A program made the translations under genes and the position numbers. DNA of 64,000 nt from Craterostigma plantagineum (lineage: Eukaryota > Streptophyta > Magnoliopsida > Lamiales > Linderniaceae), in contig JAPQWV010000126.1 in assembly GCA_027422505.1 (NCBI GenBank), positions 1,405,001 through 1,469,000 of the forward strand, given 5' to 3'. Positions within the stretch are counted from its first letter, which is position 1, and the number at the start of each line of letters is the position of its first letter. The notes under the pieces were generated by a model. That model saw nothing but the letters and a program-made list of their open reading frames with translations, ran no database searches and was not told the origin of the DNA. Of the stretch, positions 31,166 through 62,967 are shown piece by piece.

Positions 31166-34100
31166 ATGGATCTCTACGCTGAAGTTTCCATGGATGATCT
31201 CTTAGACTTGCCCAGCGATGACCTGTACTCATCTTCATCTTCCTCGTCTTTGTTGCAAACGACTAATTGCTTCGATCCCAATAGCTATTACTCCACCGAC
31301 CTAAACGACGACGACGTCGTTTTCTGTGCGCCGCCTGTAATGTTGGGGTGGCGAGCCGGGAAACTCGCCGGAGATCGCCGGGAGCCGCCGGAGAAAGAGC
31401 TGGGTCGAGCTGAAGTCTGAAATGGAGAAGAGCTGAAAATAGTCACGAGGTACAGCTGCCGTTGGATGGCTGGCCCGCAGATCGGACGGATCATATTCAA
31501 AGCCTGTAGATTGAATCAGGGCCGATGGATCGCGCGCGAATTGGATCAACGGCAGAGATTGGAAGATGCTGTGTGACGCGGATAATGAATCTCGGCCATT
31601 GGATGAAGATCGGACGGCTTCAGTTTAAAGTGTAATTTCACTTATAGAGTTGTCACGCAACTCTTGCTTGGTTCACGCAGGAAAGCACTGGCAACGTGGC
31701 TTTATGAGGAGCGTCCGATCAGATCAAGATCAACGGATGGTGTGATTCGACATTTAAGATCTTCAGCTATATATATCAGTTTTAGCAGTTCGACTGAGCT
31801 ATCTTTCCGAGCTTATATCTTCTTGTAGAGTGAAAACCACGGTGAGTCGTAAACACGAGAGTTGTAGAATGCTGAGAGGGCTGTAACTTTCGTGTTGGTG
31901 GTTTAATGAAAAGAAGCTCGGTTAGGTCCGTGGACGTAGGCGAATATTGCGCCGAACCACGTTAAATCTGTTTTCGTGTGTGTGAGTTTTCTTCTCTGTT
32001 TTTCGATTGTTTGAGCTGCGAAACGATCGAATCGATACACGAGTGATGCACACACTGAAAGCACGTCCAAATACGAGTCCGACGGCGGTCCTCGATCTAC
32101 AATTGGTGCGGTGAGCGTGGAGAACGGAGCTGTTTTCCCGGGAGTGACCGCAAGAGGCTCGTTTTGGGGATTCTCGTTGGTTCAAGCGTTTTTGGACCAA
32201 GGAGGCTGCGGATCAAGCTCGTTTCCGTTGGGAAGAGGCTTGAGGAGGCTCGGATGCAGGTGGAGGTGTCGCAGGCCGCCACGGGAAGCGCATCGGAGGG
32301 TGAAACCACGGCGGAAACGCGGGAAAGGCTTGCGGGAAAGCTGTCGGGTGATTCGGTTATAATCCGGAGCATTTTGCAGTTCGAGAGAGGTGTTGCGGGG
32401 ATCCTAGGTGATGCGAGGTTGGACCTAGAGGTTAGGAGGAACCTCGTGTGGACGGGAGGGCTGGAGAACGGCCGGAGCAACGCGAGAACTGCGGGAGAAC
32501 GGATCAACGCCGGTGACAGGCAAGCTGGTTTTCGGCCGGTTTCGGAGGCGCGATTTTCGTGTCTCGGTGGGTTGTCCGGTGGAGGCAACCGGTCCTACAC
32601 GAAGTAGGGAATGTGGTGGCTCGATTGGTGGTCGAGGGAAGCCACGGTGACCTCGGATCGAGGTGGAGCAAGGGCGGGCAAGACCCTTGGTTGGAGCAGT
32701 TTTCTGTCAAACTGCTCCAAGGTGCTGTGTTTGGAGCTCGATTGCGATGAGCTCAGGCTTGAGGTGGAGGCGATTCTACCTCGGATGGAGAGTATTCTCA
32801 GGCCACAAGAGCGGGTGAGCTAGGAGGTGGAAGAGATACGGAGGCCGGGGTTGAAACGGCGGGCGAAAGTTCGACAGAAATTCTGCCATAGCAGAATTTG
32901 TTGCTGCCGTTCGTACGGGGCAGCGGGTTGCGGAGGCTTCAAGCTCGATGGTGGCCAAGAGGAGATGTCAGGGGAGCTGTACATCGGCCGGGGCAGAAGT
33001 TCTTGAAGCGAGCAACGGTGAATCTTCGGGAGAAACGGAGATGGCGAGCTCGAAAGTCCGAGTCGACTTCATGAGGGAAATTTCAAGCCCGCTTGGAGTC
33101 GATGAGGCTTCGTTCGAGGCTCGGGGCTCTTGGAGGAGCTGGATGATCAACCGAGAAGGGCTGCAAATCGAGGTGGAGCTCTGGGACGGGAAAAAACGGG
33201 GCTCGGATTAATGATTTGCAGCTGAACAGAAAACTGAAGCGAGGCTGGTTTTCTGTGAAGTTTGGGCGGCTGTAGCGGGCGAGTATGGGCTGCGATGCGA
33301 ATTCCAGGAGATGAGATTGCGAGTTGCCGTCTCGAGGTGGAGTTTGTTGGGGTGGCGAGCCGGGAAACTCGCCGGAGATCGCCGGGAGCCGCCGGAGAAA
33401 GAGCTGGGTCGAGCTGAAGTCTGAAATGGAGAAGAGCTGAAAATAGTCACGAGGTACAGCTGCCGTTGGATGGCTGGCCCGCAGATCGGACGGATCATAT
33501 TCAAAGCCTGTAGATTGAATCAGGGCCGATGGATCGCGCGCGAATTGGATCAACGGCAGAGATTGGAAGATGCTGTGTGACGCGGATAATGAATCTCGGC
33601 CATTGGATGAAGATCGGACGGCTTCAGTTTAAAGTGTAATTTCACTTATAGAGTTGTCACGCAACTCTTGCTTGGTTCACGCAGGAAAGCACTGGCAACG
33701 TGGCTTTATGAGGAGCGTCCGATCAGATCAAGATCAACGGATGGTGTGATTCGACATTTAAGATCTTCAGCTATATATATCAGTTTTAGCAGTTCGACTG
33801 AGCTATCTTTCCGAGCTTATATCTTCTTGTAGAGTGAAAACCACGGTGAGTCGTAAACACGAGAGTTGTAGAATGCTGAGAGGGCTGTAACTTTCGTGTT
33901 GGTGGTTTAATGAAAAGAAGCTCGGTTAGGTCCGTGGACGTAGGCGAATATTGCGCCGAACCACGTTAAATCTGTTTTCGTGTGTGTGAGTTTTCTTCTC
34001 TGTTTTTCGATTGTTTGAGCTGCGAAACGATCGAATCGATACACGAGTGATGCACACACTGAAAGCACGTCCAAATACGAGTCCGACGGCGGTCCTCGAT

Positions 34101-34701
34101 CTACATGTAAGTATATATTCAGCAGCAATTTTCCATCTTTTTTTTTACCAGTTGATCAAGAATTGCCATAATATAATTTCTTGGTCGTCTTGGAAGGGCG
34201 GCGGCATGGATGACCTTGGATGGCTCTCCGCCGCCGTGGATCAGTACTCACATACGACGAGCCTCGCCGATAAGTGCCCACCCACCGCCGCCAATAACAA
34301 CACGCCACGCAGATGCACTCACTGTGCTTCGGAGAAAACGCCACAGTGGAGGACGGGCCCATCAGGCCCGAAGACGCTGTGCAACGCTTGTGGTGTCAGG
34401 TAATTAAATTAATAATTAATTACCAGCAATTCAAATAGTGTGTGAGTAGATATTATTTCAGATATGTATATTTGAATTTGATTTTATTCATGTTGTGTAT
34501 ATTATAAGGTATAAGTCGGGGAGGCTGGTGCCGGAATATAGGCCGGCGTCGAGCCCGACGTTTGTGCTGAGTCAGCACTCAAACTCCCACCGTAAGGTTA
34601 TGGAGCTGAGGAGACAGAAGGAGAAGAAGATGATGACGTCGATGCTTTTGACGACGGCGAATAAGCAGCAGGGGCATGAACGTCATTTCAGTGTCCGCTG
34701 A
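31166..34701 (+). CDS. GATA transcription factor (type IV zinc finger), intron 1 invaded by an LTR element
   Basis: Exons 31166-31336, 34197-34399 and 34509-34701 give about 188 residues. Residues 1-57 are acidic ([17 protein letters not shown]). Residues 97-122 hold the plant GATA finger, Cys97-x2-Cys100-x18-Cys119-x2-Cys122, with the [17 protein letters not shown] core. The basic tail [14 protein letters not shown] and [14 protein letters not shown] is typical of plant subfamily I GATA factors, which bind GATA sites in light- and nitrogen-regulated genes. Without the 2.77-kb element, intron 1 would be 90 bp with a GTAAGT donor. The insertion duplicated TGTAA, so the donor next to exon 1 now reads GTAATG (weaker), while the GTAAGT copy lies behind the element. 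A strong alternative acceptor, TTTTTTTTACCAG before 34152, would add 15 in-frame residues. Expression of this allele may be reduced or altered. Confidence 0.85.
31341..32101 (+). repeat. 5' LTR of the non-autonomous element
   Basis: 761 bp. It contains a TATA-like CTATATATATC near 31769-31779 that could be its promoter. A good splice donor, CACGGTGAGTC, near 31849 could produce chimeric transcripts with GATA exon 2. Confidence 0.92.
32102..33344 (+). other. Internal region of the non-autonomous LTR element
   Basis: 1243 bp between the LTRs. The longest open frame (32164-32607, about 147 codons) has no recognised domain, and overlapping frames on both strands are also open because the sequence is GC-rich. 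GAGGTGGAG-like words recur (about 32262, 32662, 32762, 33171, 33334). Either it is non-coding cargo or it derives from an unidentified source; no function is assigned. Confidence 0.6.
33345..34105 (+). repeat. 3' LTR of the non-autonomous element
   Basis: 761 bp, matching the 5' LTR in length and, as far as compared by eye, in sequence. Its end abuts the second TGTAA target duplication, which still carries the original GTAAGT donor. Confidence 0.92.
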
Positions 34702-35775
34702 TTGATGTTATTGTTGTTATTACTTTTATGTACTCTCCTTTTGTTTTTCAACTTACGATAGTGGATTTTAATTGCTTCTTCTTTCCTTTTATCGGTTCTA
34801 ATGTAATATAGACTTCGTATTTCGAATTCTGGACTGCGGAACAAGGGCATTGTCTTTTAATAAAAGCTGCTGACCATATTGATCATGTAATCTTGTTCGT
34901 GTGATTATTAGGTCCATATGTGAACACGTATATAGATCGGATCAATTTTCAATCAAATTTGACCATAAACGGCAACATTAAATCCCGAATTGTTACTTAT
35001 TATTATTATTATTATTATTATTATTGTTATTATTATTATTTTTATCATCATCGTCATATATCTATTCTATTCTATATATGTTATTAAGCGTCAGGGGTGT
35101 TAAAAACTGCCCGTTGGTATGTCAGTTTCACAAAAGAAAAAATTGATGGTAAATTCAAATATCATCCACTATATTTTAACTACTATATTTAGTTCATTCA
35201 TATGTTTAGTTAATTCTTATACATTTAATCTTATAATTTAGTTACTATGTTTAGTTAATTAATATAATTCATATACCTTTAATCTTATATACATAATTAA
35301 ATTATAATTATAATTCAATTAACTATTTTAAATTTCTTTAAATTTTATATTTATATATGCACATGCATCTGAGTGTGCAACGAGTACTATTTCTGTTATA
35401 TCGGTGAAGATTGAGTACAAACCGTCACATAGTATGTCAATTAAGATTTATTTGAAAAATTAAAAATTAAAATAAAGTCACCCACTACCTTTAATTAATT
35501 ACGATTTTACCGCTAAGATCAATATGAAAATTTATTATTACCGCTATTTTTAATTATTATGCTGCAAAATAGCGAGTGTGGGTTATGGCCCATTGGCCCA
35601 AGAGGAAAAGGCTCAAATTCTCTTCTTAATGTAAAAGTCGTCGATAGGAGAAACGTTTCCCAATATGTAACTTCCAAGTTCCACGGTTCAGCTTCAGTGA
35701 CTCAGTCTAGCTAGCTAGTCGATGTTCATGCTTAGTATCCCTGGTTCTCGATGAGTCCTTCATCTTCGGAAAAAA
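34702..35775. other. Spacer between GATA and NOT1-like genes
   Basis: 1.07 kb. It contains an (ATT)n microsatellite at about 34998-35040 and AT-rich DNA. A GGCCCATTGGCCCA stretch near 35587-35600 resembles site II elements of housekeeping promoters, about 180 bp before the NOT1-like start codon. Confidence 0.5.
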
Positions 35776-38700
35776 ATGTCTCGAATCGACGGAGATTTCG
35801 ATTCGGTTTTTCAAGACCTTCGTGTTAGGCGTGTTCGGATAATACGAGCAATAACAACGGCGAATAACCAACGACGAAAGCAAAAATAACACGCCAACTT
35901 TTTACGTGGAAAACCCGAAACGGGAAAAACCACGGGATCGCTCTCCCGATCCAAGGAAACGTCCACTATAACCAAGTTCGACGGGTACAATGGACAACAC
36001 CTCTCGAGAACGTCTCGAGGTAATAACAGCCCAACAACACACCGAAAAATACTACGCCGACAAGAGATCACGCTACGTCGAGTTACAAACTCGGTACACC
36101 AACAAACGTCGAGCTACAAGCTCGGATATACGAAGAAAGGGTTCAAGCCGATTACCACCAAACTGTGACGAACCGACCAATCTGACCCGGTAGATATGTA
36201 GATCACGTCGAGGTGACTCTCCTCCCGAAGTTTGGACGAAATCGGGGCAACGGATCGTCCGGATCGAATTTTTCTTCCTCTTTTCTTTTTCTCCCTTTTT
36301 TCTTTCTTTTCTCTCCTTTTCTCTTTTCCTCGCGTCTGTTCGTTCGTGTGTGTTGTGTATGTTCTATTTTTTTTTTTTTTTTTATATATAATACTATATA
36401 CATGCAAATGGGCCACCCAATATGGGCCGGACCCAATAAACTCCCCCTCCGGCTCATACGGTGGGCTCAAGCAAGCCCGCTTTCTGCCGACAGGTCTTGA
36501 GCTTCTCCTTCGGCAAAATCTTCGTCAACATATCTGATCCGTTCTCGCTCGTGTGTACCTTCGCCAAATACAACTGCTTCGACTCGAGCACATCTCGAAC
36601 CCAATGGTATCTGACGTCGATATGCTTGGATCTCGAATGGAATGACGAGTTCTTGGAGAGGTGGATAGCACTCTGACTATCGCTGTAGACGACATACTTG
36701 TCCTGTCGTAGACCAAGTTCTTCGAGAAACTTCTTCATCCACAAAGCTTCCTTGCAACCCTCCGTGATTGCAATGTACTCAGCTTCTGTGGTGGATAGCG
36801 CAACGCACTTCTGCAGCTTCGATTGCCACGACACAGCTCCCCCTGCAAAAGTCATCAAAAAACCTGAAATAGATTTTCTGGAATCAGTATCACCTGCCAT
36901 GTCTGAATCGGTATATCCAACTAGCATAGGCTCTCCGCTGCCAAAGCACAAACACGTCTTGGAAGTGCCTCTGAGATATCTCAATATCCACTTTACGGCT
37001 TCCCAGTGCTCTTTTCCCGGATTAGAGAGAAAACGGCTAACGACACCAACGGCATGAGCAATATCGGGTCGAGTACAAACCATGGCATACATCAAACTAC
37101 CGACCGCAGACTGGTAAGGAACTCTGCTCATATCGGCCTTTTCTTCCTCACTTTTCGGGCATTTCTCAGATGACAACTTGAAATGACCTGCAAGTGGAGA
37201 ACAAACCACCTTGGCTTTACTCATGTGAAATCTCTCGAGAACTTTCTCAATGTAGTCTTCTTGAGATAACCATAACTTTCGATTTTTCCTATCACGAGAA
37301 ATCTTCATGCCGAGAATTTTCTTCGCCGCTCCCAAGTCCTTCATTGCAAAAGACTTGCTCAACTCTCTCTTCTACGCCGCAATCTTGCTAGTATCATGGC
37401 CTATAATCAACATGTCGTCAACGTACAAGAGAAGAATAATAAAGTCGTCATCGGAGTACCTCTTGACGAATACACAATGATCCGAAGAGGTTCTGGTGTA
37501 CCCGTGACTGGTCATAAAGGAGTCAAACTTCTTGTACCATTGACGTGGAGCTTGTTTCAAGCCGTACAGACTTTTCTTCAACTTGCAAACAAGCTGCTCT
37601 TTTCCCTTGACTTTGAATCCCTCGGGCTGCTCCATGTAAATGTCTTCTTCAAGGTCACCATGAAGAAATGCAGTCTTCACGTCAAGTTGCTCAATCTCCA
37701 AGTTCAAGCGCGCCGCCAAACCAAGAGCAACTCGGATCGAGGACATCTTCACCACCGGTGAGAATATATCATCAAAGTCAATCCCTTTCTTCTGACCGAA
37801 ACCTTTCACGACCAACCGAGCTTTGTACCGTGGTCGAGAACTATTTTCTTCATTTTTCAGTCGATAAACCCATCGATTCTTGAGAGCTTTCTTTCCTCGA
37901 GGTAGCTCTACCAAATCGTAAGTGTTATTATCATAGAGGGATCGCATCTCTTCCACCATAGCTTTCATCCACTCATTCTTGTCGTCAACAGAAATTGCGT
38001 CTTGGTAATCCTCAGGTTCTCCCCCATCTGTTAGCATCACGTACTCATCTGAAGAATACCTCGTGGATGAACGATGCTCCCTAGCAGATCTTCTCAACTG
38101 AGGTTCAACCGAAGGCTCTTCGACAGCTTCATCAATAGGTTCCGCTGGCTCAACATCAACATCGCCTATAGGATTTTCATCGTTGTTGACACCGCTAGAT
38201 TCTGGAACGTCTCCCCCTTGATCAGGATATGCTACACGTACAGGAGGTGGATCTAAATAAGGTAGATCACCGCTGGACTTCTTAGGCGACTTCTCGGACT
38301 GAATGTCTCGTATGCACTGGTCTTCAATAAACACAGCATCGCGGCTTCTGATAAGCTTCTTCTGCACGGGGTCGTAAAATCTGTACCCAAACTCATCAAG
38401 GCCATAACCGATGAACACACATGGTCTGGTCTTCACATCAAGCTTCGATCGCTCGTCTTTCGGGATGTGAACAAAGGCCTTGCACCCAAACACGCGCAGG
38501 TGGTCATACGAGACTTCCTTTCCCGACCAAATCTTGTCTGGTACCTCAAATCTCAAAGGAACACAAGGTGTGAGATTTAAGACATGAACAACGGTATTTA
38601 ACGCCTCACCCCAGAAAGAATTCGGCAGCTGTGACTGCGATAGCAAACATCTCACTCTCTCGATCAGTGTTCTGTTCATCCTCTCAGCTAGGCCATTTAA

Positions 38701-41700
38701 CTGAGGTGTCTTTGGAGTCGTCTTTTGATGTCGAATACCGTATTTCTTGCAATACTCATCAAAAGGACCACAATATTCCCCTCCGTTGTCCGTCCGAATA
38801 CACTTGAGCTTTTTGTTGGTCTGTCTCTCCACCAAAGCGTGAAACTGCTTGAAAACATCTAGCACTTGATCCTTGGACTTCAGCGTATAAGCCCAGGTCT
38901 TCCTCGAATGGTCATCTACAAAAGTAACAAAATACACAGCACCACCAAGTGTTCTTGTTTTCATAGGACCACAAACATCGGAGTGAATTAGATCGAGTAT
39001 ACCTGATTTCGGCGAGTGAGTGATGTTCTTGAATGCGACTCGGGTCTGCTTCCCAGCCAAGCAATGATCACATCTTCGTAACGAAGGATTCTTCACGCCA
39101 GATAGAAGATTCTTCTTGGCTAGTATCATCAGTCCCTTTTCGCTCATGTGGCTGAGTCGATTATGCCAAAGCTCCGTCGCGCCACCATCGTCGATTGCAT
39201 TCACGGTAGAATCTGCAATCTTCGCTTGCGTCACATATAGCTGAGATGACGTCTTCTCACCTTTCGCTACGATCAAGGAGCCTTTAGTAAGCTTCCATTT
39301 TCCATCTCCAAAGTGGCTGTGGAAACCTTCATCGTCTAGCTTCCCTGTGGACATCAAACTCATGCGAAGCTCTGGAACATGCTTCACGGCCTTCAAAATC
39401 AATGTATTGCCGTTCTCCGTCTGCAAGCGCACGTCGCCGATACCGATGGCTCTAGCAACGCCATCGTCTCCCATAATAACTCGTCCAAAATCACCAGAGG
39501 TATATGAGGCAAAGAAATCCCGCCGCGGTGTAGCATGTATCGTAGCACCGCTATCGATCACCCAACTAGTCTCATGACTAGCTAGATTAACAGCATCGTC
39601 GTCGCGCAAAACAAAGAAATCTGCCGTGACTGCGGTTACCTTGTCAACTTTATCAGCATCTGTCGTCTGATGATCTTGACCCTTCGCATTCTTGTTCTCT
39701 CTCAGGAACTTTCGGCAAACTCTTTTAATGTGCCCCTTCTTGCCACAATAATGACACTCAATGTTGGCATACTTTCCCGACTTGCTCTTACTTCTGTTGC
39801 GATCACCTGGACCTCGACTCTTGCTCCTCCCCCTGTTCTCTGTGACTAGGACATCGGACTGTGAAGAAGAACCCTGCGACTTTCTTCTCATCTCTTCATT
39901 GAGCACGCTGCTCTTCACCAATTCCATCGAACAAATGCCATTTGGAGCCGAATTAGATAATGACATTCTGAATGTCTCCCACGAGTCTGGTAACGTACCA
40001 AGAAGCCACAAACCCTGCACTTCGTCGTCGAACTTGATTCCCATTCCAGATAGCTGATTAATAATTCCTTGGAATATATTCAAGTGATCAGATATGTTGC
40101 TCCCTTCTTGATACTTCAAACTCATCATCTGCTTTATCAGAAAAAGTTTGTTGTTCCCCGTCTTTCGAGCGTATAACTGCTCAAGCTTGCTCCATAAGGT
40201 CCTGGCATGTTTCTCGTCGCTTATGTGATTGAGAACATTATCGTCGACCCACTGTCGAATAAAGCCGCAAACTTGGCGATGAATCAATTCCCACTCCTTG
40301 TCGCTTTTATCAGTCGGCTTCTCCAAATCGAACACCGGCGAATAATAATCTTTTACGTATAAAAGATCCTCCATCTTCCCTTTCCAAATATGATAGTTCG
40401 ATCCGTTCAACATAACCATCCGACTAGTATTGCCCTCCATGACTTCGAACACAACAGCGCGATTCAACCTCGCTCTGATACCACTTTGTAAGGCGTGTTC
40501 GGATAATACGAGCAATAACAACGGCGAATAACCAACGACGAAAGCAAAAATAACACGCCAACTTTTTACGTGGAAAACCCGAAACGGGAAAAACCACGGG
40601 ATCGCTCTCCCGATCCAAGGAAACGTCCACTATAACCAAGTTCGACGGGTACAATGGACAACACTCTCGAGAACGTCTCGAGGTAATAACAGCCCAACAA
40701 CACACCGAAAAATACTACGCCGACAAGAGATCACGCTACGTCGAGTTACAAACTCGGTACACCAACAAACGTCGAGCTACAAGCTCGGATATACGAAGAA
40801 AGGGTTCAAGCCGATTACCACCAAACTGTGACGAACCGACCAATCTGACCCGGTAGATATGTAGATCACGTCGAGGTGACTCTCCTCCCGAAGTTTGGAC
40901 GAAATCGGGGCAACGGATCGTCCGGATCGAATTTTTCTTCCTCTTTTCTTTTCTCCCTTTTTTCTTTCTTTTCTCTCCTTTTCTCTTTCCTCGCGTCTGT
41001 TCGTTCGTGTGTGTTGTGTATGTTCTATTTTTTTTTTTTTTATATATAATACTATATACATGCAAATGGGCCACCCAATATGGGCCGGACCCAATACTTC
41101 GCGAGGTAGATTGCGTCGATTTTTGTCCGAAATGACGCGTATTTTGATAAATGCATGGAAACCCATGCGTTTGTTAGTTTCTTTTTCTATACTAACGGAG
41201 TCATGGTATTTTAGCATGCTGTGTGAAGAAAAAATCTACGCCTGCCGTGAGTGGTGTTGTTTTTGTGTTTTTTTGGATGTATCGTCTTGATTCAGGCTGC
41301 TGTTCTGTGCTGCATGGATTTAGTTTAGTTTCTCAATTTGATAGTTTCCGTGATTTAGAATGTTGAGTTATGGTATTGGGATTGATTCGTGGAATTTGTG
41401 ATCATTTCACGTTCAAGTACGTGGTCTGATTGGCATTGGGTAAATGATGGCAGAAAGTTTGCCGATTTAGTATTTTTCTCTAATGACTTTGGATTGTACA
41501 CTGCAATTTACCATCTCTGAAAATTATGCTTCCTGGAATGGAATCTTGTGATCAAAACTTTTTTCTTTTTTTACGTCAGTTGTGGATCTTGGAATGAGGA
41601 TTCTGTTGTCTTCTGCTTCAATTCAATTCATTGTTCTCCTTAAAAAATCATATTTTAAGAATTCTTTCTGCAGGTCCTGAAGCCTCAAGCTGTTTCTTCC

Positions 41701-44700
41701 TCCACAAGCTGCCTGCCTCAGGAAATGGAAAAACTGAATTTCACTGATACTTATTCTGATAATTATGCTGACGATGTCGAGGCTGAATTGAATTTGTACT
41801 TCCACAACATGTTTTCTGGCCAGCTGAGAATTGATACTATGGTTAAAATGCTTGCGCGCTTCAAGCAGTCTTCAGAGAAGAGGTTGAATCTATGTTCTTT
41901 TCTCAATCTTTCTTCCTTTTTGCATTTGGTGTATGGTTTTTTTATACCATCGGTTTTGGGCACATTTAGTGGTCAACCTTCACAATTCAATTTGGTTTGA
42001 GTTTTATTCTTTACCTATGGCTATTATTCATTCATCAGATTCTTTGGGTGTTTGTTTTCAAGATTAATATTCCCCCTTTAATCTGAAAATACTGCTGAGT
42101 TAAAAAGTGTTGGTTTTCATATCTACTGATGAGGTTCTTATGATAGTTCTGATTTGTTTTAGTTTGAGATCACTAGATGAAACAGAGATACTGTATCATA
42201 TCGTTGAAACAGAGATACTGTATCTAAGTATGGGGATAATCTCGTCCTCCGTGTGTATCTGTGGTTGGTTAAAATTTGTTGCCCACCAGATCCTGGTGAT
42301 TAAATTCATACCAGCAGTATCACCTATAGAAATTTATAATTTCTTTACAGGGACCAAAGTCTTTTTAAGCGCATTCTTGCTACTATGTTTGAGGAATTCA
42401 AGTTTTTCTCGAAGTACCCTGACATGCAGCTTAAAATTGCTGCCTCTGTTCTTGGTGAGATCTTATTTTTAAGATTTTGGCATCCATCATGCTTTTATTC
42501 ACCTCTATGCTGTATGATTTTTATTGTATTATTGAGATTTGATATATGTTGATGTACACTGCTGCGTCCCTGTCTTATTTGAACCTCCGACTTTGTAGCT
42601 TTTGTAGCTAAACTGAGACATTTCTGTGTAGTTTCAGGTGAAGTCATGCAATATTGTGAGACGCCAAACTTTTCGGCTTAGCTAATGACATATGTCCTTT
42701 CTTTGATATGTTCGCTAAAATTTTGCCTTTACTGCGTAAACTAATTGTTTCTACCTTCAGGATCACTGATCAAGCACCAACTGGTTAATCAGCTCATGTT
42801 AGGCATTTGTTTGCGAGGTGTTTTAGATGCTTTAGCGAAACCTGCAGATTCAAAAGTCCGTATCATCTCCGCTTCTTATTATTTTTCATGTCTTTCGAGT
42901 TTTTCTGAATGATAACCAATCTTGCTGGTGTTCAGATGTTTGGCTTTGGGATTATGGCGTTAGAGCAGTTTGTTGAGCGTATAATGGAGTGGCCACAATA
43001 CTGCAATCATATTTTGCAAATATCTCATTTACGAGCCACCCATCCAGATCTTATCAAGTCTATTGAGGGTGCATTGAAGAAAATTTCAGCGGCAGTTGCA
43101 GAAATTGATGCTGTTCATCAGAATGCTCTCGTCGAATCATCTGCCAGTGCCATGTCTACGGAGGTAATGTCTTGATTTTTCTTAAGAAGTCCTCAGCCAC
43201 AATAGTTGCATGTCACTAGTCAACTTATTTTTTATTTTCTAATGTGATTGTTTAATAGTTGTATGCCTCAACATCTATTGATATTACGGCCAGCATAATC
43301 TTGCCTAGTAGAGAAGCATCAAACCGTTGATCGGTTAGAATTTCCTTCTTCGTTAAAAGCATCGATCATGTATATAGTCTGAATTTATATTCTGGGATTT
43401 GGAAGTATGAAAATTTGCCACCAATTCCACCGTTCATAGATTTTATGTGTCCCTCCAATTTTCCCAATTTTTGCTTTCGTAACATGTTATGATGTTTCAC
43501 TTTTCAAACAGGCTCCAGAGTCAGAAATTCAGGATAGCATATCATTCATAATGAACAATCTATCTCAGAACAATATTGATGACAAGGCCAAACAGTTCAT
43601 TGGAATCATGAAAGAACATTACTATCCCTGGTTTGCTCGGTACATCGTCGTGAGAAGGTGGGAAGTTAACTTTATTTCAAGAACTTCATAAGCATTGTCT
43701 TGAAAAAAATTTCCTTACTTCAGTTACATCTCTATAATGCAATAGTGTTGGATAAGCAGTTGGAATTAAGGCAAAACAAAATTGTGCCTGATTTCAACTT
43801 CTTCTTTTGTCTCAATTTACAGGATCAGCATGGAGACAAATTTTCATGATTTGTATTTGAGTTTCCTCGATAAAGTCGATCTGAAGCCACTGAACAAGGA
43901 GATTGTTGATGCCACATACAAGAGCTGCAAAGTCTGCTTATGCGAACTACTTATCTCATTGATATGGAATCTGGTGTTTATAATTTATACCTTCTGCTGT
44001 TGCAGGCCCTTTTAAAATCTGTCTTCATAAAGTCTGGTGTGGAAGAACGTATGATGCTAAAGAGTTTGGGAAGCTGGCTTGGGAAAATTACTATCGGCAA
44101 AAATCACTTTCTAACAGCACGAGAGATCGATCCAAAATCTCTGCTTATAGAGGTTTGCTACCTATCTATATCTTCTTCCGTAAGCAGCAATCTGAATCAG
44201 CTAGGCATCATTGCATTGTTTGTTAACATTTGCAGGCCTATGAGAAAGGGCGTATGATTGTTATAATTCCTTTTATCTCAAAGGTAAGATGATGATTTTG
44301 TGATCCCCAATACACAATTTAGCTTGCGTTAGCCTGAACTCCGTGCTCTTTTCAGATTTTGCAGTCATGTTCAAACAGTATAGCATTTCGACCTCCTAAT
44401 CCTTGGACAGTTGGTATTCTGAAATTGCTGGCGGAGATTTATGACATGCCGAACTTGAAGATGGATCTTCAGTTTGAGATTAATGTAATAATTCTTTGCA
44501 TGCTATCTTGCAAATATTTCTCTACGTATGAATGTGTCGGCCTTAATATGAGATCGCTATCAGGGTCTCTTCAGGGACCTCGGATTGGACCTGAAGGAGT
44601 TTACGCCGGACTCTCTTCTCAAGGACAAAGTCCGAGAAGTCACAGGTAATACTGATTTCGTCCACGACGACTATGGATCTTCTCGGCCACAAGAGGTAAT

Positions 44701-46963
44701 ATCAACACAAAGTAAAGATAAATTATGTGTGATTTTAAAGGCGATGGCTTCTGATTTTTTTTTCCCCGTATTCTTGCTTATCATTGCTTTCATGAGATTT
44801 TGCCTGACTAATGTTTTGCCTACTTTTGAACAGGATCCAGAATCAGAAATTCGGAATGAGATGTCATCAATATTAAATAGTCTATCTCCAAAGAATATTG
44901 ATGATAAAGCTAAAGAATTCATTCGAATCGCGAAAGCGCAAAACTATCCTTGCTTTGCTCAGTTTATTGTGAAAAGGTGAGAATTTTCTTCTGTTTAAAA
45001 AAAAAAATGATGAGTTATGTAAAAAGAGAATTGCTCCTAAAGCCGACGCCGTCTCTACAATGCGAGGTGTCAGAAGTAACGAGTGGACTGATAATTAAGA
45101 TAAGGAAAAGCGACTGATTTCTTGTTGTTTTTGTGTCTTAATTTTACAGGATCAGCATCGAGACAAATCTTCATGATTTGTACTTGAAGTTCCTCGATAG
45201 AGTCAATCAGATACCACTGAATAGAGAGATTTTTAATGCCACGTATGAGAACTGCAAGGTTTGTTCACACGAACTCCGCTTCCCTACAGCCAAGGAATCT
45301 ATCGTTTATAATGTAACCTTCTTTTTAGGTCCTCTTAAAATCTGACCTTATAAGGTCTAGCGTGGTAGTACGTTGGAAGCTGAAAAATTTGGGAAGCTGG
45401 CTTGGGAAGATCGCAATTGGCAATAATCAAGTTCTGAGGATTGATTTGAAATCTCTGATTGTAGAGGTCTTTTCCTGTGCCTTGACATGTTTTGGATAAA
45501 TCTTTGCTTTTCCATCGCCTTCGTTCTTCATCAGCTGATCCGTTATCCATTGCAGGCATATGAGAAAGGGCTTATGAGTGCTATTATTCCTTTCATCTCA
45601 AAGGTTAGAATACGATTTGTGATTCACCAATACTCACTTTGCAATGTGTTGACTCTGTTTGTACTTCACTCAGATTTTAGAGTCATGTTCCAAAGGTGCA
45701 TATCAACCTCCTAATACTTGGACAGTTGGTATTCTTGGATTGTTTGCGGAAATTTATGGCATGCCAAACTTGAAGATGAATCTTAAGATTGAGATTGAGG
45801 TAATCCTTCTGCACGTTGTCCGGCCATTTCCTACGAGCTTAAAAAGCTGTAGTACGATGGCTTCATTTTTTGTTTGTTCACTCTCAGGTCTTGTTCAAGA
45901 ATCTGGGAGTCAACCTTAAGGATATTCCATTGACCTATCTTTTCAAGAATAAAGCCCCAAAAGTCGAAGGTAATCCTGATTTCTCCCGTAAGGACTGTGG
46001 ATCTCCTCAGCCGAAAGTAATGATATGCAAACTAAGTAAAGTCGAGGTACGTCGGTTATTATGCTTGCTCTTCATTGTGCCTGGTAAAATATTTCACTCG
46101 ATCTCTAACATTGATATCTGTCCAGGCGAACATCGAAAGACTAGTTGTTATCAATAAGAGTCTTTGGGCTTATGGTCTAGACTTGCCTCTTCAGTGGTCT
46201 GCACCAGATCTTGAACTTCGTTTTAACTTTCTTATTAACTTCATATAAAAAAAAAATTTCTGTTTCATCCTCTTTGTACAGGGTACTTCCTATGGCAATG
46301 AACAGAGCTGTCAATGCCATGTTGGCAAATATCGTGCCTCGAAGCGTTAACATTGCAACTCAGACGACTAAGGAACTCATTCTAAAGGTGGTCTTTCTTA
46401 CTACAGTTCATTACAAATGTTTGTTTATATTGCAACATGGTTGATGAATAATTTATCATTATATGGCAGGACTATTCGATGGAATCCGATGAAACCCTAA
46501 TGTGCGATGCTGCGTATTCGATGGTTGCAAGATTGGCAAGTTCCCACGCCAACGTAACCTCCAAGGTGGGAATGCGCTTAAATCTTAATCGTTCTGTTGC
46601 CTTCTTTCTATCCCGAGGATATTTGTTATGATCGCTTAACTTTCACGTGTTTCCAGGAGCCATTGCGCTCGTGTTTATCGAGCTTGATTGGGACTTCGCT
46701 TTCACGTCTGGGCTCAAACCCATCTGATCGCAAAATACTCGAACAAGCGGCCCAACTCGTGACAATGGAAAATCTTGATCTTGCTTCTGCATTGATCGAA
46801 CAAGCTGCTACCGAGCAGGTTTTCAGTTTTCTTCGTTGAATCTCAACATTGAATGAGTTTTTTAATTCTTTGTTTTGAAATGGTTATCTGATTTTGGTTA
46901 CAGGCAGTTCAAGCCATAGATGGAGAGATTGCTCGTACCTTATATTACCAAAACTCAAACTGA
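35776..46963 (+). CDS. NOT1-like mini-scaffold with two tandem MIF4G domains; exon 1 split by Copia
   Basis: Exon 1 is 35776-35822 plus 41102-41105, split by a Copia element. Exons 2-22 are 41674-41882, 42351-42454, 42761-42855, 42936-43163, 43512-43657, 43823-43931, 44006-44152, 44236-44283, 44356-44484, 44564-44695, 44834-44976, 45150-45258, 45329-45466, 45556-45603, 45674-45799, 45888-46016, 46126-46193, 46282-46387, 46470-46565, 46657-46818 and 46904-46963. All join in frame; without the insertion the protein is about 860 residues. In order it has the NOT1 TTP-binding region ([22 protein letters not shown]), a CAF1-binding MIF4G, a second MIF4G, and the DUF3819/CNOT9-binding region ([20 protein letters not shown]). 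The NOT1 N-terminal HEAT region and C-terminal NOT2/3-binding domain are missing. Full NOT1 scaffolds the CCR4-NOT deadenylase. This form could bind CAF1 twice and CNOT9 but not NOT2/3 (inference). The insertion after codon 15 probably disables the normal start; ATG 41725 is a possible rescue. Confidence 0.88.
35823..36438 (-). repeat. 3' LTR of the Copia element
   Basis: 616 bp. On the + strand it runs from TGTTAGGCG to CCCAATA. It differs from the other LTR at the fourth base (T versus A), by an extra C near 36001, and in T-run lengths (for example 36367-36383). Confidence 0.92.
36454..40440 (-). CDS. Copia gag-pol polyprotein with one internal stop codon
   Basis: A single frame of about 1,329 codons, starting at the Met at 40440 (MEGNTSRM). 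It is interrupted only by one TAG at 37374-37372, about codon 1023. Domains in order: gag with the CCHC knuckle [14 protein letters not shown]; aspartic protease with DSGA; integrase with its HHCC zinc region and DDE core including RTDNGGEY; reverse transcriptase with YVDDM; and RNase H with DSQSAIHL. This protease-integrase-RT order is diagnostic of Ty1/Copia. An in-frame ATG further upstream (40521) lies inside the LTR and is unlikely to be the start. The stop falls within the reverse transcriptase, shortly after YVDD, so this copy is probably not autonomous unless the stop is a sequence error or is suppressed. Otherwise the frame is intact. Confidence 0.92.
40487..41096 (-). repeat. 5' LTR of the Copia element
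   Basis: 610 bp. On the + strand it runs from TGTAAGGCG to CCCAATA. It is flanked inward by the tRNA-Met-type primer-binding site and outward by target duplication CTTCG. Confidence 0.92.
42179..42224 (+). repeat. 26-bp tandem repeat in NOT1-like intron 2
   Basis: GAAACAGAGATACTGTATC occurs at 42179-42197 and again about 26 bp later. Non-coding and minor. Confidence 0.8.
43512..44695 (+). repeat. MIF4G module A of the NOT1-like gene (exons 6-11)
   Basis: Six exons of 146, 109, 147, 48, 129 and 132 nt encode one CAF1-binding MIF4G-like domain. It starts [20 protein letters not shown] and includes [18 protein letters not shown] and [20 protein letters not shown]. Module B (44834-46016) has the same six-exon architecture and phases. 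Confidence 0.88.
44834..46016 (+). repeat. MIF4G module B of the NOT1-like gene (exons 12-17)
   Basis: Six exons of 143, 109, 138, 48, 126 and 129 nt, parallel to module A in order, phase and nearly in length. The encoded domain starts [20 protein letters not shown] and contains [18 protein letters not shown] and [19 protein letters not shown]. The first 46 aligned residues are roughly 60% identical to module A by eye. Module B has lost a few residues around the segment that reads [12 protein letters not shown] in A (VLRIDLKSL in B). Confidence 0.88.
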
Positions 46964-47181: not shown

Positions 47182-47466
47182 CTACCAACTTTTTGTTTCT
47201 TCAATCTCTGCGGGCAAAGTAGAGCTTGCCCATGACGTGAAGAGGGCGACGAAAGCTATGAAACCGATGCTCCTCATCACAAGCACGACATTAGGGGAGA
47301 TTTTCAGCCCAGATGCATCGTCCGTGTAGAACTGAAGCATTGTTCCGCCGCCGGCAGCTCCTCCTCCGGCGGCCCCACCACCGCCGTCGGCGGATCTCCG
47401 GCGACGGAGATTGGCGGCCGCCGCCGCGGCGGTCCCTCTCTGAGGAGCCCTTCCACCTGCTGCCAT
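47182..47466 (-). CDS. SEC61B: Sec61 complex subunit beta, frameshifted at its C-terminus
   Basis: Single-exon, 94 residues as read. Sec61 beta is the small tail-anchored subunit of the ER protein-conducting channel. The Ala/Arg/Gly-rich cytosolic N-terminus (APQRG, NLRRRR) and the conserved [20 protein letters not shown] block identify the family. The single transmembrane helix starts [15 protein letters not shown]. Family members normally continue LHVMGKLY. Here that sequence is present but one base out of frame from about 47238, and would stop at 47203-47201. As printed, the tail instead reads [10 protein letters not shown] and stops at 47182. An Arg after VVLVM inside the membrane helix is also unusual and comes from three extra bases. 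A missing base in the consensus is the simplest explanation for the frameshift. The gene is convergent with the NOT1-like gene, about 220 bp apart. Confidence 0.88.
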
Positions 47467-47770
47467 TCTCTGAGATTTTCAGAAACACAATATGAGAGAG
47501 AGGGTTCTTGGAAAAGGCCAAGAGATGATGATGATGGAGATAAAGAACCCACCAATGTTATTCAATTAAAAGAAGGGAGACACATTCCCAATTAACGGGG
47601 AATGAATACGTGATCACTTAAACATACGAGTGCTTCATCTCTATGTTATTAAAGATCATTCTAACATGTGCCTCAATTTCAGCTCTAAATGTCTCAATGT
47701 CAAATAGTCTAAATATTATGGCTTATATTAGCACAAACATGAAGCAAAAGACACATGCGTACTGAGCTTG

Positions 47771-60807: not shown

Positions 60808-62967
60808 TCAGCACCTCCAGGCCGAGGCTGAGATCAACTCCTTCCTTTGCCAGCACAAGACGAGCGAAGATTGCCTCTTCTCCACAGCAAACCCTCGAAC
60901 GCCCATCCTCTTGACAATACACTCGGCCTGCGATTCAGCGAAACTGCTGAAATTTACGGGCGAAAATCCATATGAAAGCAGCAAAGCCCTCCAATGGTGG
61001 GCCTTTTCTTGACCATTACCACGAAGGAACCTCTTCGCCACGATTCTTTCAATCTCGGGCTGTAATAGAAACTTCTCGATCCTCTGCAGTTCGTCGCCGT
61101 CTGCCCCCTTAACCGATTCCAAAGATTCTAGAAGGTTCGAATAGGACTGAAGGGCGTGAATCATATGATTCGCAAAGGGCAAATCGGTCCTATCGCAACC
61201 CCTGTCCAAAGACACGACGATTCTTGGAGACAACTGCTTCACAAACCTAAGCACCGAAGAAGCTTCAGACAGCTCCTTACTGCTGTCCGAAACAACGCCC
61301 GCCGGCAGATTGACCACGACAGCTTCCGAGGATCGAAAGGGCGGTGGATTTAGAGAGTCGAAGCCCAGCAAATTGAATTCGAAGGAGAGATTGATTTCTC
61401 CGGCAAATTGAATCAAATTCTCGCGTGCTAGCCCGATTTCAAACTGTTCTTGGCTCGAGGGAGACGAAACAAAGGCTGTAATTTTCAGAGATTTTGAGCC
61501 TCCACTTACCAAGGAGAGTTCTTGCATAAGAGAAGCCCACTGCCCGCCATACCCTACATCGAAATCGACGACGTGGATCCTATCGAACCCTTCGACACCC
61601 TCTAAAATGGCCTGATTGCAGGTAAAGTTCGCGAATTGAAGGACGGGCGATATCTCAGAGAAGGTTTTGTAGGCTCCAATCTTGAATATAAGACTGAAAG
61701 GCGACGAATTGCCTGCCAAACTGTTGTTAGAAGAAAGAAGAAGCGATTGCAACGCTTCTTGGAAGTAAAAAGCAGCCCTTTGAAGAGGCTTCTTCGTCCC
61801 ACTGCTACTACTAATGGGAGAGAGATGGTGATTGAGCCGCGCCAATATCCCCTGCGCGAGTACTGTGTTTCCCGTCTGGACAAGCTCGGCGGCCTTAAAC
61901 AGCTGATCGACGATCGATTGCTGCTCATTTCGCTGTCCTAAATCTTCCCCGTTATTCGGTTTTTGTCCTAATTTGATGGCCGCCGAGCTGTAGTGGGGAA
62001 GAAACTGAAGGTTGTGACGATTATTGGGTTGTTGTTCGAATGGAATGTAAGAGCCTTTCGACGAATCCATTACGCCTATCCCAGGATTGTGCCTCTTGGA
62101 CTGAGGTGGAAAGATTGGATTTTGATCGTATGGGAGAGGAAACACTAGCGAGGAAGAAGGTGCTGGGGATTGCTGAGTAGTTTGCTGGTGAAATAGGAGC
62201 TGTGAGTTGAACAATGGAAGCTTCGTGTCAAGGGAATAATGAGGAGAATCGAATGAGAGATTACTGGGCATCAGATTCGAAGAGATGGGGTTGGATAATC
62301 CGTCGATGATTGGGACGTTAGGCATCAGATTAACGCCGCCGCCGGCGAGGCTGAAGCTTTCTTGATCCCAAACCCCAAAACCACCGTTGAAGTCAAACTC
62401 TAGGCCGTTGCTTCCGCCGCCGCCGAGGTGGAGGGCCTTCGACGCCGAGGTGGGATCTTCGGAGGCTACGTCGCCCATGATCCATCTGAGAACGGATTGG
62501 TCTTGGCCGGCGGGTGCCACGTCGGACAGCACGCTTTCCCAGTCTTCCATAGCCACAGCCAACCTCTCGCCGCCGGCACCGCTCGTGCCTACCGCCGACG
62601 CAATTAGGGAGTCACGCGCCGCCGCGAGGTTCGAGCAGCTCGTAGCTGTAGCTGAGTCTTGCTGATGATGGTGCCATTTGGGAGACGGGTTCGTCGTGTC
62701 GGTTGAACCGCCTCCACCGAAGGCGGAGGAGCCGCCGCCGCCGCAGTGGGAGGAAGACAGCGTTGAGGAGGACGTGGGCCTGCCGGAAAATCTTGCAGAA
62801 TCCAGGACAGATTTGGGCTCACCAAAGCTGTTCTCCGAGATGCAATTCTTTACAAGGAAAGAACTGCTGTTGTTGGTTGTGAGTAAAGATTGGTTTTTTT
62901 GAAGAATTAGGTCTAAATCTAACAACCCTTTCCCCTCAAAATCAAAGGGCAAGGGCATTCCCTTCAT
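60808..62967 (-). CDS. GRAS transcription factor, HAIRY MERISTEM (HAM/SCL6) type
   Basis: A single uninterrupted exon of 719 residues, with start MKGMPLPFDFEGKG, the typical HAM N-terminus. The variable N-terminal half is Ser/Gly/Asn-rich and includes WESVLSD and LRWIMGDV, motifs shared by this subfamily. The GRAS domain occupies about the last 370 residues. It runs from VDQLFKAAELVQTGNTVLAQ through the VHIID-equivalent IHVVDFDVGYGGQWASLMQE and PFYRE/SAW regions to LVLCWQRKELISASAWRC. HAM proteins are nuclear cofactors of WUSCHEL that keep meristem cells undifferentiated. The transcript carries a perfect miR171 site (61829-61849), the main known control of this clade. The frame is intact. Confidence 0.95.
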   Translation of the reverse strand: MKGMPLPFDFEGKGLLDLDLILQKNQSLLTTNNSSSFLVKNCISENSFGEPKSVLDSARFSGRPTSSSTLSSSHCGGGGSSAFGGGGSTDTTNPSPKWHHHQQDSATATSCSNLAAARDSLIASAVGTSGAGGERLAVAMEDWESVLSDVAPAGQDQSVLRWIMGDVASEDPTSASKALHLGGGGSNGLEFDFNGGFGVWDQESFSLAGGGVNLMPNVPIIDGLSNPISSNLMPSNLSFDSPHYSLDTKLPLFNSQLLFHQQTTQQSPAPSSSLVFPLPYDQNPIFPPQSKRHNPGIGVMDSSKGSYIPFEQQPNNRHNLQFLPHYSSAAIKLGQKPNNGEDLGQRNEQQSIVDQLFKAAELVQTGNTVLAQGILARLNHHLSPISSSSGTKKPLQRAAFYFQEALQSLLLSSNNSLAGNSSPFSLIFKIGAYKTFSEISPVLQFANFTCNQAILEGVEGFDRIHVVDFDVGYGGQWASLMQELSLVSGGSKSLKITAFVSSPSSQEQFEIGLARENLIQFAGEINLSFEFNLLGFDSLNPPPFRSSEAVVVNLPAGVVSDSSKELSEASSVLRFVKQLSPRIVVSLDRGCDRTDLPFANHMIHALQSYSNLLESLESVKGADGDELQRIEKFLLQPEIERIVAKRFLRGNGQEKAHHWRALLLSYGFSPVNFSSFAESQAECIVKRMGVRGFAVEKRQSSLVLCWQRKELISASAWRC
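61829..61849 (-). promoter_or_regulatory. miR171 target site in the HAM/SCL6-type transcript
   Basis: The + strand from TGATTGAGCC to GCCAATATC over these 21 bases matches the mature miR171 sequence as remembered. The minus-strand mRNA, starting GATATTGGCG, is therefore fully complementary, and it encodes ILARLNH in the early GRAS domain. Perfect pairing at this conserved spot predicts AGO1-mediated cleavage. Confidence 0.95.

Follow-up and report, generated by a model that had tools for sequence, protein, structure and literature searches.

A shortened NOT1 paralog with a doubled CAF1-binding MIF4G domain in Craterostigma plantagineum

NOT1 is the central scaffold of CCR4-NOT, the main mRNA tail-trimming complex, and decides where the deadenylases act. 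In a 64-kb stretch of the Craterostigma plantagineum assembly (C126:1405001-1469000, called the window in the following; the assembly comprises 1.71 Gb in 6262 contigs) a short NOT1-like gene had been noticed from the letters alone. This sequence-only reading took it for a NOT1 paralog that is shortened and has its MIF4G domain twice, and proposed that it could carry two deadenylases. It was asked whether the short gene is real and whether this interpretation holds.

Gene structure and domains of the window locus

Exons 2-22 of the short gene were located at 41674-46963 on the plus strand, where all 20 introns have GT-AG borders and the phases are consistent. The exons form one open frame of 853 codons without inner stop, which ends with TGA at 46961-46963. 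The 21 exons after exon 1 and the stop codon, as originally proposed, could thus be confirmed. A processed retrocopy was ruled out, since the introns are retained.

The Pfam search with the window protein showed the predicted domain order of TTP-binding, MIF4G, MIF4G and DUF3819. CNOT1_TTP_bind (PF16417) was matched at residues 23-186 with 195 bits and is encoded by exons 2-5 (41674-41882, 42351-42454, 42761-42855 and 42936-43163; plus strand, as all exons). CNOT1_CAF1_bind (PF16415) was matched in two stretches with 482 bits together. The first of these MIF4G domains, MIF-A, is encoded by exons 6-11 (43512-43657, 43823-43931, 44006-44152, 44236-44283, 44356-44484 and 44564-44695), the second, MIF-B, by exons 12-17 (44834-44976, 45150-45258, 45329-45466, 45556-45603, 45674-45799 and 45888-46046). 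The NOT9-binding segment with DUF3819 (PF12842; residues 713-846, 114 bits) follows on exons 18-22 (46126-46193, 46282-46387, 46470-46565, 46657-46818 and 46904-46963 including the stop). No further Pfam family was detected in the window protein at E 0.001; neither the connector domain nor an MA3 domain after DUF3819 was among the matches. The protein ends with DUF3819, and in the last exon of this segment the similarity to NOT1 runs out at the same point. Human CNOT1 chains of the PDB matched the window protein with E values of 5e-60 (MIF4G), 3e-33 (TTP-binding) and 2e-15 (DUF3819), and the database matches of the gene were NOT1 proteins. From gene structure, domains and descent from NOT1, the classification as a shortened NOT1 paralog with duplicated MIF4G was borne out.

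Neither the 64-kb window nor the 9.9-kb stretches of six sister loci described below gave a tblastn match (E 1e-6) to the HEAT or the C-terminal region of NOT1. As positive control, the HEAT region was matched in the full NOT1 loci C1, C8, C79 and C185; for the C-terminal half, matches were obtained in all seven loci of the full type, of which C308, C452 and C3509 entered the search as partial sequence only. The claimed absence of a HEAT region and of a C-terminal NOT2/3-binding domain therefore stands, and no missing NOT1 exons were found elsewhere within the window and the sister stretches.

Exon 1 was the part in which the sequence-only reading had to be corrected. It had placed the ATG at 35776 and overlooked that exon 1 of this copy is interrupted by an LTR retrotransposon. 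The 5' part of exon 1 (35751-35822, plus strand) is followed by the retrotransposon (35823-41096, minus strand; LTRs at 35823-36438 and 40487-41096) and by the 3' end of the exon (41097-41105, plus strand). This 3' end consists of the duplicated target CTTCG and the letters CGAG, which together with the donor GT (beginning at 41106) occupy 41102-41107 beyond the element. The uninterrupted exon 1 of C36a and C7 ends with CTTCGCGAG, followed by GTAGAT; the empty insertion site was found in C36a at C36:446-449 kb. Within the element, two long open reading frames of 1085 and 305 amino acids were detected on the minus strand, and from its protein motifs we take it to be Copia-like. The LTRs differ by one mismatch in 610 aligned bases and by 6 gap columns, and the target duplication comprises 5 bp. 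The retrotransposon is very young, presumably about 0.1 million years old if assumed substitution rates are applied to the LTR divergence.

The ATG at 35776 does exist, and the corresponding ATG of C36a reads in frame into the remaining gene. However, the start common to the sister loci corresponds to ATG 35751 (protein MSPSSSE...), and in the window reading from 35776 enters the retrotransposon and stops after 37 residues. In addition, the A-run behind ATG 35751 has 2 nt fewer in the window than in C36a, and the frame from this ATG stops early. Because the young element splits exon 1 and the frame is broken in the A-run, the normal start of the window copy is very probably lost. A downstream promoter could nevertheless keep all domains by way of an ATG in exon 2, at its codon 18.

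The 5' part of exon 1 has its homologue in the first exon of full NOT1. Exon 1 of C7 matched this NOT1 exon over 34 residues with 53% identity (E 3.6e-5) in each of the loci C1, C8, C79 and C185, where all its other matches had E values above 1. In the short gene and in full NOT1 alike, the exon ends in a glutamate codon, followed by the splice donor. Therefore, the short gene corresponds to a NOT1 from which everything between exon 1 and the exons of the TTP domain has been removed. When its intron 1 was compared with NOT1 intron 1 and with the intron before the TTP exons, and when shared upstream DNA was sought, no clear margin over shuffled sequence or two control stretches was observed.

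Seven short loci and the tandem doubling

A genome search with the CAF1-binding model revealed seven loci of the doubled type, namely the window locus in C126 and its sisters C36a, C36b, C12a, C12b, C7 and C3615. Seven further loci outside the doubled type were matched by the same model. The doubled structure was seen exon by exon in all six sisters, in which GT-AG is kept at the intron borders of all recovered exons 2-22. Thus, the domain order of the window gene recurs at six other places in the genome (in C12b without exons 1-3), and the concern that no other copy with a doubled domain exists does not apply.

Separate full NOT1 genes are present as well. The C-terminal Not1 domain (PF04054) was detected at C1, C8, C79, C185, C308, C452 and C3509 and at none of the seven short loci. 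The full loci form two groups, C1/C8/C79 with 96-99% and C185/C308/C452/C3509 with 97-99% identity within the group and 93-95% between the groups. This distance of about 6% between two groups suggests a polyploid or multi-haplotype assembly.

For five sisters (C36a, C36b, C7, C12a and C12b) eight flank stretches of 9.9 kb were compared with the window. All eight match it in order, and the longest shared pieces show 82-99% identity. Because of these matching flanks, we take these loci to be for the most part alleles or homoeologues that go back to a single ancestral locus. The nearest copy to that of the window is C36a with 98% identity in the gene. C12b, which is 72 kb away from C12a and lacks exons 1-3, looks like a local truncated duplicate.

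The doubling itself comprises exons 6-11 with their introns. By blastn against the sisters and by self-alignment of C7, the first unit was placed at 43499-44717 and the second at 44822-46041 (both plus strand). Each unit of the window aligned to the other unit of C36a with 69-70% identity over 1257 columns, in single gapped alignments through the introns. The five internal introns of one C7 unit scored against those of the other with z values of 2.7 to 8.9 over shuffles; against full NOT1, too, some of these introns reach z values (1.3 to 6.3). In length, five of the six MIF4G exons agree with their counterparts in the genome's full NOT1.

The protein tree places all MIF-A rows in one clade and all MIF-B rows in another, each with support of 100/100. 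MIF-A and MIF-B are sisters with 94/84, just under the strict mark of the tool; together they join the genome's full NOT1 (98/97), next to Lamiales rows of Handroanthus, Sesamum and Salvia (93/86). Five of the 39 rows were dropped from this tree, those of Ipomoea, Vitis, Oxalis and Salvia P0058 with incomplete domain and MIF-A of C36b with its deletion. The joint place of MIF-A and MIF-B is less sure than the support values indicate because their branches are long (0.30 and 0.32). Between the two domains dS is 0.41, and from either to full NOT1 it is 0.67-0.80. Tree and dS agree, and the order of events would therefore be the split from NOT1, the doubling of exons 6-11 and the spread into seven loci. 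We conclude from alignments and tree that exons 6-11 were copied in tandem, together with their introns, before the seven loci spread.

CAF1-contact residues and predicted function

The passages of Petit et al. (2012, PMC3510486) on the interface of human NOT1 with CAF1 describe two contact loops. In the loop between helices 6 and 7, K1208, P1209 and H1212 contact CAF1, and K1218 follows behind this loop; in the loop between helices 8 and 9, the contacts are V1250, V1251, F1252 and P1257 and W1258 of the motif PPNPW. Both loops are linked by a hydrogen bond between N1207 and S1249.

In the alignment, MIF-A has both loops at full length and keeps N1207, K1218, S1249, F1252 and PPNPW; motif and loop lengths are preserved in all seven loci. 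At K1208, P1209, H1212, V1250 and V1251, MIF-A has H, F, A, I and A. The full NOT1 of the genome departs from human at the same five positions (Q, V, A, I and A). In MIF-B of all seven loci, three residues are lost in the helix 6-7 loop and one in the helix 8-9 loop. Glycine replaces S1249, N1207 and K1218 are kept, and PPNPW is found at no locus, the motif being PPNTW in six and PPNDW in C7. Among 25 other alignment rows 22 have PPNPW, Camellia has LPNPW, and in two gene models the stretch is missing wholly or in part. A PPNxW motif was present in 103 of 138 database proteins and reads PPNPW in every one of them. Because both MIF-B loops are shortened and the motif is altered in all copies, and MIF-A keeps motif and loop lengths, one deadenylase site is likely and not two. 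The suggestion that the protein could carry two deadenylases was accordingly not borne out.

MIF4G docks CAF1, DUF3819 docks CAF40/NOT9 and the C-terminus of NOT1 binds the NOT module, as stated in PMC4032980. By homology, MIF-A of the short protein would dock CAF1 and, through CAF1, CCR4, and the DUF3819 segment would dock NOT9. MIF-B, with its CAF1 contact surface lost, may be a spacer or may bind something else. Since the docks for CAF1 and NOT9 are kept and the HEAT region and the NOT2/NOT3-binding C-terminus are lost, competition with NOT1 is expected. The intact copies would act as a small competing scaffold which draws CAF1 and NOT9 off full NOT1. In Arabidopsis, according to PMC8009681, NOT9B is bound by a NOT1 fragment that comprises MIF4G and DUF3819, and the interaction of phyA with NOT9B is lowered when this fragment is co-expressed. 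We assign a probability of about 0.5 to the reading as a competing scaffold. It takes the seven loci to represent one lineage-specific NOT1 paralog, in the form of alleles, homoeologues and one or more local duplicates, that competes with full NOT1 for CAF1 and NOT9. A more far-reaching form is less probable: the protein might be a stand-alone NOT1 core that evolved in one plant lineage into a natural CCR4-NOT antagonist, which has one working CAF1 dock and a NOT9 dock, with MIF-B, devoid of CAF1 contacts, recruited for another ligand or for dimer formation, and which sequesters deadenylase and NOT9 and tunes mRNA decay.

A conserved paralog with docks for CAF1 and NOT9 and without the ends of NOT1 would be a natural test of competition between free NOT1 cores and the full complex, a question addressed with constructs in the cited papers. 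Furthermore, paired MIF4G domains with and without a CAF1 surface offer a ready comparison of which loop residues matter.

The main rival to the competing scaffold is decay into pseudogenes, and it is possible, though below even odds, that a once-expressed NOT1 fragment without present function is being lost. Five of the seven copies have lesions. Besides the window copy, these are C36b, which lacks 13 nt of exon 8, C12a with a 1-nt insertion in exon 18, C12b, in which exons 2-3 are missing and no convincing exon 1 was found, and C3615 with length changes in 9 of 21 exons, located on a 39-kb contig where uneven sequence quality is possible. In contrast, C36a (879 amino acids) and C7 (887 amino acids) are open from the shared ATG to the stop through all 22 exons, and the splice borders recovered in the sisters are kept. 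Between these two copies dN is 0.020 and dS 0.078 (dN/dS 0.26), with 40 changes that alter an amino acid and 41 that are silent (binomial P 1.2e-6 at a transition bias of 2 and 7.9e-6 at 3). Such values, well below one for the whole gene, indicate purifying selection on the short gene between its intact copies and speak against simple decay. For six copies 100 distinct amino-acid-changing and 74 silent changes were counted in a star-like approximation (P 4e-9, 9e-7 and 1.2e-5 at a bias of 1, 2 and 3); C3615 was left out owing to its many length changes, and the amino-acid changes are inflated because damaged copies are included.

The constraint is not evenly distributed. It is strongest in DUF3819 and MIF-A (six-copy P 0.0002 and 0.005 at a bias of 2) and weak in MIF-B. 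For MIF-B neutrality was rejected at a bias of 1 (P 0.035) and not at 2 or 3 (P 0.094 and 0.15), and in the intact pair 7 amino-acid changes stand against 5 silent ones (P 0.16); dN/dS of MIF-B against MIF-A is 0.56. For the TTP domain the corresponding values were 0.018, 0.056 and 0.098, neutrality again not being rejected at a bias of 2 or 3. The weak constraint of these two domains fits a decaying duplicate; for MIF-B it is also what is expected if this domain no longer docks CAF1, as assumed for the competing scaffold.

Two other explanations concern MIF-B. It might have gained a new role with another partner, as a helical platform or in dimerisation, comparable to MIF4G2 of CDAN1, which dimerises in a protein with two MIF4G domains and DUF3819 according to PMC11911400. 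The domain still matches the Pfam model, and its dN/dS against full NOT1 is 0.24. The present constraint on MIF-B is weak, however, and we regard such a new function as rather improbable. Docking of CAF1 by both MIF4G domains, which was rejected as first choice in view of the altered loops of MIF-B, is unlikely. Both domains match the Pfam CAF1-binding model, and a single contact change, P1257Y, is tolerated in human NOT1 according to the mutant descriptions in PMC3510486; P1209Y and P1257Y together abolish CAF1 binding there. MIF-B, on the other hand, combines the loop deletions of three and one residues, the loss of S1249 and the change of P1257 to T or D in every copy.

An assembly or gene-model artefact, with NOT1 exons elsewhere or an erroneous doubling, might be imagined from the 6262 contigs and from C3615, whose many length changes hint at uneven quality, but it is highly improbable and was rejected, as the same doubling is present in seven loci, each of the five sisters whose flanks were compared is syntenic with the window on one or both sides, the divergence between the two units is about 31%, and tblastn gave no HEAT or C-terminal match in the window.

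Relatives, known scaffolds and neighbouring genes

Two CAF1-binding domains were detected in none of 138 database relatives (P0001-P0138), of which 135 had at least one match to the domain; C7, used as control, was recognized as doubled. The relatives combine 116 matches among 7997 scored candidates sharing most words with the query and 82 matches among 2599. Candidates were limited to 0.55-1.75 times the query length and to shared words, and absence from all plants does not follow. In a count with a single query, 11 of the 116 relatives gave more than one stretch, but these were rejected as doubled domains, since in the gene models a single domain was split into complementary parts. In the open-licence literature no description of a doubled CAF1-binding domain and nothing on a truncated NOT1-like protein in the context of CCR4-NOT was found, and only the paper on CDAN1 connected two MIF4G domains with NOT1.

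The short protein shares with NOT1/CNOT1 the order of TTP-binding domain, CAF1-binding MIF4G and DUF3819 as well as the first exon. It differs by its length of less than 900 residues, by the lack of HEAT region and C-terminal NOT2/3-binding domain, by a connector domain missing from its Pfam matches, and by the additional derived MIF4G. The M fragment of Arabidopsis NOT1 is likewise a middle segment of NOT1 that binds and competes for NOT9B, but it is an artificial construct, described in the relevant passages of PMC8009681 as DUF3819 and MIF4G only. CDAN1 (codanin-1) also resembles the centre of NOT1 as a stand-alone scaffold with two MIF4G domains and DUF3819, and differs by an MA3-type domain and ASF1-binding elements, as described in the domain comparison of PMC11911400. 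There, the four domains of CDAN1 all find their counterparts, in unchanged order, within one internal segment of CNOT1; therefore, we read the MIF4G pair of CDAN1 as the TTP-binding and CAF1-binding MIF4Gs of NOT1, not as a doubled CAF1-binding domain.

Short NOT1-like models of Camelina (847 amino acids), Ananas (810) and Ambrosia (922) have TTP-binding, CAF1-binding and DUF3819 domains and neither HEAT nor Not1 C-terminal domain. In contrast to the gene described here they are not doubled; that of Ambrosia is marked as partial, and any of them may be incomplete. Two proteins of Salvia splendens, P0064 and P0066 (SASPL_109123 and SASPL_109124), have consecutive numbers, are short and NOT1-like and contain identical MIF4G segments. 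They are perhaps another tandem NOT1 fragment in Lamiales.

Directly upstream of the short NOT1 gene lies a gene at 33990-34701 (plus strand), presumably a GATA-type zinc finger from its motif. From about 34.1 kb onward, the DNA of the window is common to five of the six sister loci, C12b being the exception. One stretch of 29 protein letters occurs twice about 2 kb apart, at 32015-32359 and 34019-34171; these repeats are perhaps the ends or the target of an insertion. Near the 3' end of the short gene a small reading frame on the opposite strand (47182-47478, minus strand), which we assume to be Sec61-beta-like, comes to its end. Neither tRNAs nor Rfam matches at gathering threshold were detected in the 64-kb window. 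Finally, an intact single-exon GRAS gene of the scarecrow-like 6 type was found at 60811-62967 (minus strand, 719 amino acids). Its best database match is 55% identical over the full length, and the best named full-length relatives belong to Lamiales (Sesamum, Phlomoides, Paulownia and Handroanthus; 52-55% identity), a level pointing to a Lamiales lineage thinly covered by the database.
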